This document shows positions 4,314-22,721 of a stretch of DNA of 35,471 bases, in pieces; the first letter of the stretch is position 1; each line of letters opens with the position of its first letter. The notes under the pieces are model-generated. The model saw only the letters and a list, made by a program, of their open reading frames with translations. It was not told the DNA's origin and did not search any database. The position numbers were made by a program, and so were the translations under genes. The DNA is from Algoriphagus sp. (GTDB taxonomy: Bacteria > Bacteroidota > Bacteroidia > Cytophagales > Cyclobacteriaceae), in assembly GCA_024642365.1 (NCBI GenBank), contig JAHEBE010000005.1, positions 1 through 35,471 of the forward strand, read 5' to 3'.

Positions 4314-4622
4314 TTAGTCCTGAGGAGCTAGTTCTTTAATCTTTTTGCTGCTTTTGATTTTCTCAATGAAAACCTTAGACGGCTTAAATGCTGGAATGTA
4401 ATGCTCGTCGATTACGATTGCAGTATTTTTTGAAATGTTTCTGGCGATTTTCTTAGCTCTCTTCTTGTTGATGAAGCTACCAAAACCTCTCACATAAATG
4501 TTGTCTCCGTCAGCCATTGACTCCTTCACTACTTTGAAGAACGCCTCAACTGTCTGTGTCACATCATCTTTCTGGATTCCGGTTTTGTCTGAAATCTTGG
4601 TGATTACTTCTGCTTTTGTCAC
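4314..4622 (-). CDS. HU-family DNA-binding protein
   Basis: Small nucleoid-associated protein that bends DNA as a dimer. The 102-residue sequence has the helix-turn-helix dimerisation part (residues 1-45, TKAEVITKISDKTGI), the signature GFGSFINKKRAKKIARN, the beta-arm, and a Pro-containing arm tip region leading into IPAFKPSK. The C-terminus carries about 10 extra residues beyond the usual 90. The start codon is GTG: the frame MTKAEVI matches the family start and no ATG lies upstream in frame. It heads a four-gene minus-strand operon. A consensus-type -7 element (TACATTTG on the minus strand) lies 66 bases upstream of the start. Confidence 0.93.
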   Translation of the reverse strand: MTKAEVITKISDKTGIQKDDVTQTVEAFFKVVKESMADGDNIYVRGFGSFINKKRAKKIARNISKNTAIVIDEHYIPAFKPSKVFIEKIKSSKKIKELAPQD

Positions 4623-19820: not shown

Positions 19821-21599
19821 TTGGCTAAATCAGATTTCATAACCAAGCTGCTCATTTGGAGGCTACGGCATATGAGCAACCAAAATTTTATCCTGATTCT
19901 CAGCGGAATTATTGGTGTCATTTCTGGATTGGCAGCGGTTATACTCAAAGAATCTGTACATGCTATTCAGCACTTTCTTACTGAAGATTTTTATACCGAG
20001 TATGCGAATTTCTTATACATCCTTTACCCGATCATTGGTATAACAGCAGCTTTCTTATTAGGAAAATATCTATTTAAAGACTTTGGCGGACACGGGATTC
20101 CCGATGTTCTATTTACGATTTCAAAAAAACAAAGCATCATCCCTTTAGTGAAAACTTACAGTAGAGTCTTCACTTCTGCCTTAACAGTTGGCTTTGGAGG
20201 ATCTGTAGGTCTAGAAGCCCCCATGCTTGTCACTGGATCCGCGATAGGTTCTAACGTAGGCCTTTTGGTTCACTTGAATGCCAAAAAACGAACCTTATTA
20301 ATTGGATGTGGTGCTGCTGGAGCCATTTCGGCTATTTTTGGAGCGCCAATTGGAGCAGTTATTTTCGCGATTGAAGTTATTTTAATGGAAATCAGTACGG
20401 GATCATTCATCCCATTATTGATTGCTTCAGTGACTGGTTCTTTGACTTCCATGATCCTCATAGGCAATGATCCTGTATTTACATTTGATCTAGAAGGATC
20501 ATTTGCTGCGGGTCATATGCCTTACTACTTAGCTTTAGGCATGGTTTGCGGTGTAGTTTCTCTCTATTTCAGCAGAACCGTTCGAAGCACAGAAAGACTA
20601 ATGGATGGCTTGGAGTCTCAAACTTTAAAATTGCTGTATGGTGGTGCCTTAATCGGTTTTATGGTCTTTTTCTTTCCCCCTATTTATGGTGAGGGGTACG
20701 ATACATTGAACCTGTTGATCAATGGAAACTCTGACCAGCTATTAAACAAAAGCCCCTTTTTCTCTTCTAGCGAAAACCCTTATTTGATTATCATCTTTTT
20801 ATCCTTAATCATATTGGTAAAGCCAATCGCTGCAGCTTTGACCCTAGGAAGCGGTGGAAGTGGTGGTATTTTCGCTCCATCACTCTATGTAGGCGGTATT
20901 GTTGGTTTTGTGTTTGCTTATTCCAAAAATCAACTTGGCTTTCACATCCCCCTCCCTTTGGCACACTTTACCCTTGTGGCCATGTGTGGGGTAATGGCAG
21001 GAGTACAGCATGCCCCACTTTCAGCAATATTCTTAATCGCAGAAATTACGGGTGGATACGAACTATTTGTTCCATTGATGTTTGTGTCAGCAATCTCATA
21101 CATCACTACCACGTATTTTCAAAAAGACAGCCTCTATGTCATGCAACTTAAGGAGAAGGGGCGTCAACTTCCAGAGTCAAAAGATCAAGAGTTGCTTGAC
21201 CTAATTACTATAACCCATGTAATCGAGCGAGACTTAATCCCGATTCATCCAGATGCCAAACTCAGGGATTTAATCGACTTGGTAAAAATATCAAAACGGA
21301 ATATTTTCCCGGTCGTGGATGAAAATGAAGTCCTTAGAGGTATTATCACTTTAGATGATATCCGAGACATCATGTTTGATCGAGAAAAACAGGAACAGGT
21401 TCACATCAACTCCCTAATGCACAGCCCACCAGAAATCCTATTAGATACAGAAAATATGCAAAAAGCGATGGAGAAATTTGAACTTTCCGGCGCTTGGAAT
21501 TTACCTGTTATTGCGGATGGGCGCTATATTGGCTTTGTATCCAAGTCCAGAATCTTTAATGCTTATCGTAAAAGGTTGATCAAAGAACGAACGGATTAA
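19821..21599 (+). CDS. ClC-family chloride channel/antiporter with CBS pair
   Basis: 592 residues if TTG at 19821 is the start. The first ATG in frame (19872) would cut off KLLIWRLRHMS, which looks like the conserved cytoplasmic helix before the first membrane span, so TTG is preferred; the frame closes upstream at 19794. About ten to twelve membrane helices cover residues 22-430. Selectivity motifs are GGSVGLEAPMLVTG (the Glu is the external gate, equivalent to GREGP), GSGGSGGIFAPSLYVGG (GxFxP) and CGVMAGVQHAPLSAIFLI. Two CBS domains follow at about 465-585 (IFPVVDENEVLRGIITLDDI; WNLPVIADGRYIGFVSKSRI), which usually sense nucleotides. The gating Glu suggests either a Cl-/H+ exchanger or a gated channel. 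The gene ends at the edge of the DnaA-box region. Confidence 0.9.
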   Translation: MAKSDFITKLLIWRLRHMSNQNFILILSGIIGVISGLAAVILKESVHAIQHFLTEDFYTEYANFLYILYPIIGITAAFLLGKYLFKDFGGHGIPDVLFTISKKQSIIPLVKTYSRVFTSALTVGFGGSVGLEAPMLVTGSAIGSNVGLLVHLNAKKRTLLIGCGAAGAISAIFGAPIGAVIFAIEVILMEISTGSFIPLLIASVTGSLTSMILIGNDPVFTFDLEGSFAAGHMPYYLALGMVCGVVSLYFSRTVRSTERLMDGLESQTLKLLYGGALIGFMVFFFPPIYGEGYDTLNLLINGNSDQLLNKSPFFSSSENPYLIIIFLSLIILVKPIAAALTLGSGGSGGIFAPSLYVGGIVGFVFAYSKNQLGFHIPLPLAHFTLVAMCGVMAGVQHAPLSAIFLIAEITGGYELFVPLMFVSAISYITTTYFQKDSLYVMQLKEKGRQLPESKDQELLDLITITHVIERDLIPIHPDAKLRDLIDLVKISKRNIFPVVDENEVLRGIITLDDIRDIMFDREKQEQVHINSLMHSPPEILLDTENMQKAMEKFELSGAWNLPVIADGRYIGFVSKSRIFNAYRKRLIKERTD

Positions 21600-21602
21600 T
21601 CC

Positions 21603-21623
21603 AATTTAGAAGAATATTTGGCG
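21603..21623 (+). repeat. 21-nt direct repeat, copy 1
   Basis: Identical over 21 bases (core TTTAGAAGAATATTTGGCG) to 21904-21924. It starts 4 bases after the ClC stop. Flanks differ, although both copies are followed within 65 bases by TTTCAAT, TTTTTGATG and CTTGAA. Confidence 0.85.
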
Positions 21624-21903
21624 AACGGAATTATCCACGATTTCAATCTATTTTTGATGCGCTCTACTTGAAGTTACGAACTATTATCCACAAATCTTAG
21701 TCTTGCCAAACCATCATAACTTCCTTATTATCAATGATTTGATTATCGTTATAAAATCAATGTGGATAAATAATTGATTTTGTGGATAAAAAATACTTGC
21801 ATTTTTTAATCCTTAAAATTGGCTCAAAAACGAACTTTTTTTCTAGAAGTGTCCTATTACAATTAAAAGAAAAAGCCCTGATCCGAAAGCTGATAAACGC
21901 TAA

Positions 21904-21924
21904 AATTTAGAAGAATATTTGGCG
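21904..21924 (+). repeat. 21-nt direct repeat, copy 2
   Basis: Second exact copy, 301 bases to the right of copy 1, in the same orientation and on the mtgA side of the DnaA-box cluster. It is followed by GGCGCGC. Confidence 0.85.
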
Positions 21925-22025
21925 CGCTAAAAAATCTTTCAATTTCTACTTATTTCTTTTCTCAATTTTTGATGAAACTTCAAAAGTGACTTGAAAATGT
22001 CCCATTTTAACAGGCTAAATTCAAA

Positions 22026-22721
22026 CTATACTCCATAACCCAAAGGAGCCAGATTGCTCATTTGGCGTAATATCCATCCTTGCCTACCGACTATATAAGG
22101 AGTGGGTCTGGCTGGTGTCCATCTTCGAGGGTTTGGAAGTACCGCTGCGATCATTGCGGCTTGGCTTCGATTAAGTTTAGCAGCAGGTTTGTTGTAGTAA
22201 GTTTGCGCCGCTGCCTCAATTCCATAAATACCCTCGCCCATTTCAATCACATTGAGATAAACTTCCATGATTCGCTCTTTGGACCAGATCAATTCCACCA
22301 AGACGGTAAAATAGGCCTCCAGTGCTTTTCTCACATAACTTCTTTCAGGCCATAAGAATACGTTCTTCACCGTTTGCTGCGTAATCGTACTTGCTCCTTT
22401 AATCCGTTTTCCTTTTTTATTTCCTTCCCAAGCTTTTTCCATGGCTTCGAGATCAAAACCATGATGGTCTAGAAATTTCTGATCCTCTGCACCATAGACT
22501 GCCTGTGGTGCATTTTTGGAAATCTGAGACATAGGAACCCAGTCTTTATACAGTCTCATTTCTTTTTTCTCATCGGTAGCCTGCTCTACAAGTCTGATCA
22601 CCATCAATGGGGTGATTGGTACTGGGACAAAACGATAAATAATCGTAAGGCCAATCGATAATCCGAAAAACCAAAGTGCTGATTTCCACAAAAATCTCCA
22701 GATCAGTTTAAGAAATTTCAT
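22026..22721 (-). CDS. mtgA: Monofunctional biosynthetic peptidoglycan transglycosylase
   Basis: Polymerises lipid II into glycan strands without a transpeptidase domain. 231 residues: one N-terminal membrane helix (about 12-31), then the GT51 domain. Catalytic Glu E79 lies in GAEDQKFLDHHGFD; further GT51 motifs are GASTITQQTVKN (about 109-120), RKALEAYFTVLVE and WSKERIMEVYLNVIEMGEGIYGIEAA. Length matches MtgA. The enzyme acts on the periplasmic side of the inner membrane. It starts 9 bases after the methyltransferase stop, so the two form an operon. No terminator hairpin is visible downstream, where the DnaA-box region begins. Confidence 0.95.
   Translation of the reverse strand: MKFLKLIWRFLWKSALWFFGLSIGLTIIYRFVPVPITPLMVIRLVEQATDEKKEMRLYKDWVPMSQISKNAPQAVYGAEDQKFLDHHGFDLEAMEKAWEGNKKGKRIKGASTITQQTVKNVFLWPERSYVRKALEAYFTVLVELIWSKERIMEVYLNVIEMGEGIYGIEAAAQTYYNKPAAKLNRSQAAMIAAVLPNPRRWTPARPTPYIVGRQGWILRQMSNLAPLGYGV

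Follow-up and report, generated by a model that had tools for sequence, protein, structure and literature searches.

In this study, a cluster of DnaA boxes was investigated in the window, the whole stretch of 35,471 nucleotides from a draft genome of Algoriphagus sp. (3.4 Mb, 483 contigs, 83% complete). Judging from the boxes and their conservation, we consider that the locus is probably a single-copy, non-coding regulatory element that would bind DnaA together with an IHF/HU-type protein, and that would lie near the true replication origin (oriC) and apart from it. The origin is most likely found elsewhere in the same genome and not at this cluster.

DnaA boxes between a ClC channel gene and mtgA

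A sequence-only reading of this DNA had reported three exact DnaA boxes, two of them co-oriented and 20 bp apart, together with a near-exact copy at 21631, and we found all four at the positions given in Table 1. It had also held the cluster to be beyond chance, which our counts bear out: boxes 2, 3 and 4 are the only exact boxes in the whole window, where 100 dinucleotide shuffles gave a mean of 0.32 and a largest count of 2, and finding at least three exact boxes within 426 bp has a Poisson probability of 2e-8 given the gap's composition and of 6e-8 given the genome's own rate. The AT block from 21721 to 21840 does contain 27 G or C as was counted, though the block alone is not special, because the window has two further intergenic stretches that fall below this, with counts of 22 and 24 over 120 bp. 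The neighbours had been named correctly as a ClC channel and mtgA, as shown by their family matches, and the gap bearing the boxes sits between the two convergent gene ends.

Near both ends of the gap, an exact 21-nt direct repeat was noticed (21603-21623 and 21904-21924); its reading as a dispersed repeat was dropped, since the genome of the window has these two copies only. Similar GAATAAAATTT-like motifs are present at either end of the gaps in the same genus.

Table 1. Features of the locus, the candidate binding protein and the candidate origin (window positions unless a contig is named)
Feature	Position	Strand	Remarks
HU/IHF-family (DNABII) protein gene	4314..4622	-	PF00216, 3e-24; only such gene in the window
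ClC channel gene, left neighbour	19821..21599	+	PF00654, 6e-80
DnaA box 1, TTATCCACG	21631..21639	+	one mismatch
DnaA box 2, TTATCCACA	21684..21692	+	exact
IHF-like dyad, family form TAAN4TTGATWATCAAN4TTA	21717..21741	.	window copy degenerate in the left half and intact in the right
Perfect match to the E. coli IHF consensus WATCAANNNNTTR	21729..21741	+	letters TATCAATGATTTG
DnaA box 3, TTATCCACA	21761..21769	-	exact
DnaA box 4, TTATCCACA	21781..21789	-	exact; 20 bp from box 3
AT-rich flank past box 4	21790..21840	.	weakly conserved CTTG..TTTTT; without an AT spike comparable to that of the oriC candidate
mtgA, right neighbour	22026..22721	-	TIGR02070, above its cut-off; convergent with the ClC gene
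Candidate oriC	own genome, C104:23220-23640 (L003:2720-3140)		upstream of AMP-ligase gene; about 7 DnaA boxes with at most one mismatch

A conserved module in Cyclobacteriaceae

As judged from sequence comparison, the box cluster is real and conserved across the family Cyclobacteriaceae, in the form of a module consisting of one TTATCCACA(+), a spacer of 67-69 bp and two reversed boxes 20 bp apart. The search pattern was TCCACA, a gap of 66-71 bp, TGTGGAWAA, 11 bp and TGTGGAWAA, which permits lengths of 101-106 bp. One copy each was observed in 82 of the 148 family genomes, with 0 for the reversed-pattern controls, and the exact pattern was absent from 66 of the 148. The sample of the class yielded the pattern in 4 of 295, all of the same genus, and in 0 of 288 outside the family, while the sample of the order, searched with a wider gap, yielded 33 of 291, comprising 12/12 of the same genus, 15/30 of the rest of the family and 6/249 outside the family.

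The 149 module loci (30 from the family search and 119 among the matches listed in the named scan) were reduced to 134 distinct modules, and removal of 17 modules whose loci carry the label of another lineage (six Rubrobacter-type, Lewinella-type, Chitinophagales and others) left a set of 117. Among the loci removed, L189 has the ClC gene as neighbour and is possibly a relative with a wrong label. Among the matches listed, all 117 distinct modules are 102-104 bp long, and the first three bases of box 2, which lie outside the search pattern, are TTA (88), TTG (19) or ATA (10) in 117/117. Among the matches listed, 51 of the 117 modules (29+14+8) carry a box 1 in + orientation with at most one mismatch, its distance upstream from box 2 being 52-54 bp. 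The gap sequence has diverged in relatives and the boxes keep their register; among the matches listed, an ORF of at least 120 aa containing the module was found for 0 of 117.

With respect to the neighbourhood, the ClC gene is the immediate left-hand neighbour in 74 of the 119 named-scan loci among the matches listed and in 15 of the 30 family-search loci, and mtgA stands to the right of the module in 37 of the 119 among the matches listed and in 3 of the 30. The keeping of the ClC neighbour, together with five promoter-like matches at 21500-22150 where shuffles have a mean of 2.7, would suit an unrelated role, in which DnaA controls the transcription of a neighbour or the module is a nucleoid or segregation site. 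We nevertheless consider such a role very improbable: the module form is retained where the neighbour genes differ, convergent neighbours occur here and at 60 of the 117 modules among the matches listed (of the rest, 38 have the two flanking ORFs on the + strand, 4 have them on the - strand, 6 have them divergent and 9 lie at an edge), and an Rfam search of 21500-22150 returned no family at its gathering score. A promoter role is possible at some modules among the matches listed because of the 38 with both neighbours on the + strand and the 6 with divergent ones. A non-coding RNA at the locus was considered and dropped, as no Rfam match came near the gathering score in 21500-22150.

The spacer dyad and comparison with datA, DARS and B. 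subtilis clusters

The spacer harbors a single conserved element other than the DnaA boxes, and this element fits the E. coli IHF consensus as given in the excerpted text of PMC4585315. Further perfect matches to the consensus were detected at 21732-21744(-) and 21767-21779(-), the total for the whole window being 5. Among the matches listed, perfect matches occur in 51 of the 134 spacers, compared with a mean of 1.67 and a maximum of 6 in mononucleotide shuffles, and 105 of the 134 show one mismatch or none (shuffles: mean 28.8, maximum 41); without the 17 loci labelled as other lineages, the counts among the matches listed are 49/117 and 99/117, respectively. These matches fall mainly at two fixed positions on opposite strands, which together form the dyad of Table 1, and its best placement is at the same position, near the middle of the spacer, in 109 of the 117 modules among the matches listed. 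We infer that an IHF/HU-type protein would bind this dyad, and the symmetric 25-bp site would suit a homodimeric protein of HU/IHF type. The DNABII protein encoded at 4314-4622, whose best NCBIfam matches are IHF beta/alpha at scores below the curated cut-offs, is a possible candidate for the binder of the module.

According to excerpts of PMC4585315 and PMC5742627, datA of E. coli is an intergenic region near oriC that needs DnaA boxes on either side of an IHF site at a set spacing. The same scan applied to the E. coli datA region recovered two + boxes, a perfect IHF match and then further boxes, and the module, also non-coding, displays the same order of two + boxes, an IHF-consensus site and more boxes, with boxes on both sides of a site that is assigned to IHF by consensus only and at set spacing from it. 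Like datA, it is a single locus near the oriC candidate, the C104-type site described below being taken as oriC, and as datA lies between glyVXY and queG in the excerpted sources, the module lies here between convergent genes; sequence homology with datA is not expected. The two differ in that the spacer of the module is shorter and constant and its IHF-like element palindromic, and above all in direction, as box 2 (+) opposes boxes 3 and 4 (-) across the IHF-like site, whereas the essential datA boxes all share one direction in the excerpted text of PMC5742627. The same excerpt states that HU is no substitute for IHF at E. coli datA.

An opposed box is a character of DARS, where box I of the core opposes boxes II and III (PMC5742627, in excerpt), and box 2 of the module likewise faces against boxes 3 and 4. 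In orientation, this trio of boxes fits the core of DARS1 and DARS2; the long spacer and the IHF-like site inside it do not. DARS2 uses IHF in the excerpted account. That the module is a DARS-like site reactivating DnaA by ADP release appears rather improbable to us all the same, since its IHF-like site is placed between the boxes as in datA, with the opposed boxes 77 bp apart and the whole origin-proximal, whereas that of DARS2 is sited in a separate regulatory region according to the same excerpt. Because the plan is datA-like except for direction and the opposed box is DARS-like, we take the module, on this evidence, as one that would work like the datA/DARS class, and we do not file it as datA. 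A datA- or DARS-like site had been the second suggestion of the sequence-only reading, and it is this suggestion that fits best, given the single copy, the fixed geometry, the IHF-like site between boxes, the nearness to the oriC candidate and the non-coding position.

Passive titration, by which the cluster would hold DnaA with no catalysis and no bending protein as the oriC-proximal clusters of B. subtilis do, is in our view unlikely. Several points would agree with titration: the module groups consensus boxes in non-coding DNA close to the candidate origin, coding sequences in that zone of the chromosome are likewise enriched in exact boxes, and titration near oriC is described for E. coli in the excerpted PMC12371093; the constant spacing and the conserved IHF-like dyad, however, are not needed for it. 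The module resembles a B. subtilis DnaA-box cluster (DBC), termed analogous to datA in the excerpt of PMC5742627, in lying outside but near the oriC candidate, and it is unlike the six clusters without IHF reported in the excerpt of PMC13220808 in being one fixed unit.

The probable replication origin and the proposed role of the module

The module was initially read as oriC, and this was not favoured once the genome-wide box list led to three exact boxes in one gap of contig C104. A search for another intergenic region carrying the main DnaA-box array had been advised with the sequence-only reading, and such a region was thus found in the same genome; with this denser array and the skew of relatives in 5 of 6, the reading of the module as chromosomal origin lost its favour. 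From its array and core, C104:23220-23640 is likely the oriC of the window's genome. It lies between an Ig-like-domain protein gene and the AMP-ligase gene, and within 500 bp it holds 7 boxes with at most one mismatch versus 4 at the module. Adjacent boxes are followed there by TTAATAAC and a 45-bp stretch with 91% AT, compared with 84% at most in the window gap. In five other genomes the orthologous ligase has this array upstream of it; in a sixth, G116, it does not.

Across the family, the C104-type core consists of two adjacent boxes, TTAATAACnnTAATA, a block of 90-96% AT and then an opposite-strand box, and its upstream boxes recur at similar distances. A sequence model of the core (R1), built from 15 of the sites it afterwards found, recognised 83 of the 148 family genomes at E <=0.01 (own genome 1.9e-10; in G107 the best of six weak matches was used). 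The 15-bp AT means are 60-77% around box 4 (117 modules among the matches listed) versus 96% and 90% at the C104-type site, and an AT-rich unwinding element was not found beside the boxes of the module. The module thus shares DnaA boxes, AT-rich DNA and conserved geometry with a bacterial oriC of the C104 type, and differs from it by fewer boxes, no AT spike and a position off the skew switch of G047. A DnaA-trio motif was looked for by eye only, and none is claimed.

Both sites are present in 52 genomes, on one contig in 23 of them, 37-370 kb apart in all (median 131 kb), and on separate contigs in the other 29, own genome included. In the single-contig genomes with both sites, they lie within 264 kb in 7/7; the value of p = 1e-7 for independent uniform placement is overstated because the genomes are related. 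The dnaA gene of the window's draft genome was located on a different contig, C406, and the distance between module and dnaA is 6-32% of the genome in 8 complete genomes. An origin that is not beside dnaA, as the sequence-only reading suggested, seems right for the family, and its place would be at the C104-type site, not here. In G047, G085 and ten other family genomes, dnaA was observed far from both sites.

The advised skew check was run on relatives. In 8/8 complete genomes the sampled skew has lower values to the left of the module than to its right, weakly so in G107, and the module is therefore in the origin half. The best skew split is at the module in G114 and G036 and level with it in G047 (3/8), and in the other five it is 5-7% of the genome off; the module lies near the GC-skew minimum of complete relatives and usually off it. 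The left-right contrast and the three splits at or level with the module would also agree with the module as the chromosomal origin and the C104-type array as an auxiliary site, as would the C104-type sites being no more widespread (83/148) than the module (82/148). That reading is, in our judgement, very improbable, given the missing AT spike together with the skew that follows. In fine samples of G047 the skew is mostly below zero as far as 1.40 Mb, zero at 1.42-1.44 Mb and above zero from 1.46 Mb on, with the exception of -0.036 in the stretch holding the module (1.557 Mb). The switch falls at the C104-type core (1.4334 Mb), 123 kb from the module, with -0.057 to the left and +0.125 to the right within one 20-kb stretch that also includes some opposite-sign 2-kb windows.

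An interval-skew test, in which the sign between the two sites should be opposite under the rival origin readings, covered six genomes, the orientation of G130 itself being taken from skew. It favours the C104-type site in five (G047, G096, G114, G036 and G130; small samples) and the module in G120, where the interval is negative as the module reading predicts and the switch is beyond both sites. Coarse samples do not separate the two sites in G114 and G036, and G120 fits neither. The skew contrast at dnaA is greater than at the module in G107 and G120. Within the window, the local skew resembles that of a terminus, being positive on the left and negative on the right, which also speaks against an origin at the module.

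Other candidates for oriC were rejected. A minimum of G047 at about 1.0-1.1 Mb appeared in coarse skew; in finer samples the skew is about zero at 1.10-1.16 Mb, after which it turns negative once more up to 1.40 Mb. In G047, the box groups at 1.35, 1.39 and 1.42 Mb are located inside ORFs, and an exact-box hotspot near a photolyase-like gene (G130 C7:281-295 kb, G085 622-631 kb) has nearly all its boxes in ORFs, with no array in the gaps within it. Crowding of boxes in coding DNA of the origin-side zone was observed at G130 C7:281477-294614 (14 in 13 kb), G085 C1:622592-631341 (12 in 9 kb) and own C387 (5 in 4.5 kb), by eye around the photolyase-like gene in two genomes, and this zone is possibly a titration zone.

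Under the preferred reading of a regulatory element for DnaA and an IHF/HU-type protein, DnaA would occupy box 2 and the weaker box 1 to the left of the mid-spacer dyad and boxes 3 and 4 to its right, and the protein on the dyad would fold the DNA and thereby bring both groups of DnaA together. The site would be replicated soon after initiation, and once doubled it would reduce the amount of active DnaA, either through ATP hydrolysis promoted in the manner of E. coli datA or, at a minimum, by retaining DnaA. The sequence itself shows the boxes with their fixed spacing, the single copy, the dyad, the location outside coding DNA and the proximity to the oriC candidate, all of which support this reading; binding by proteins, folding of the DNA and the sense in which the site acts are what we infer from it. 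The opposed box 2, the 4314-4622 protein below the IHF cut-offs and the 66 of 148 family genomes lacking the exact pattern count against this reading.

More tentatively, and as a proposal that may well fail, Cyclobacteriaceae and some neighbouring Bacteroidota might possess a counterpart of datA that was built independently, namely one switch near oriC with opposed boxes flanking a symmetric 25-bp site; DnaA inactivation by DNA looping would then not be confined to proteobacteria, and the same loci would reveal a family oriC that is not beside dnaA. Replication timing in Bacteroidota is little studied in the literature searched, and neither a datA-like element nor a mapped oriC in Cyclobacteriaceae was found in the open-licence full-text literature. 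A conserved plan near that of datA would show that a switch of DnaA and a bending protein has arisen or persisted outside proteobacteria. The module offers a concrete 103-bp target for deletion tests, and the C104-type site a testable family oriC, useful for oriC plasmids.

Among loci labelled as other lineages, Lewinella-type L175, L177 and L179 and Chitinophagales L200 display a similar layout with extra inverted boxes around a TGATnATCA-like centre, and the arrangement adjoins apparent ribonucleotide reductase genes in L175 and L179. In Rubrobacter-type L117, L122, L123, L147, L206 and L229, the box pattern matches and the dyad is absent; L123 resembles a dnaA-dnaN origin with about 20 boxes.
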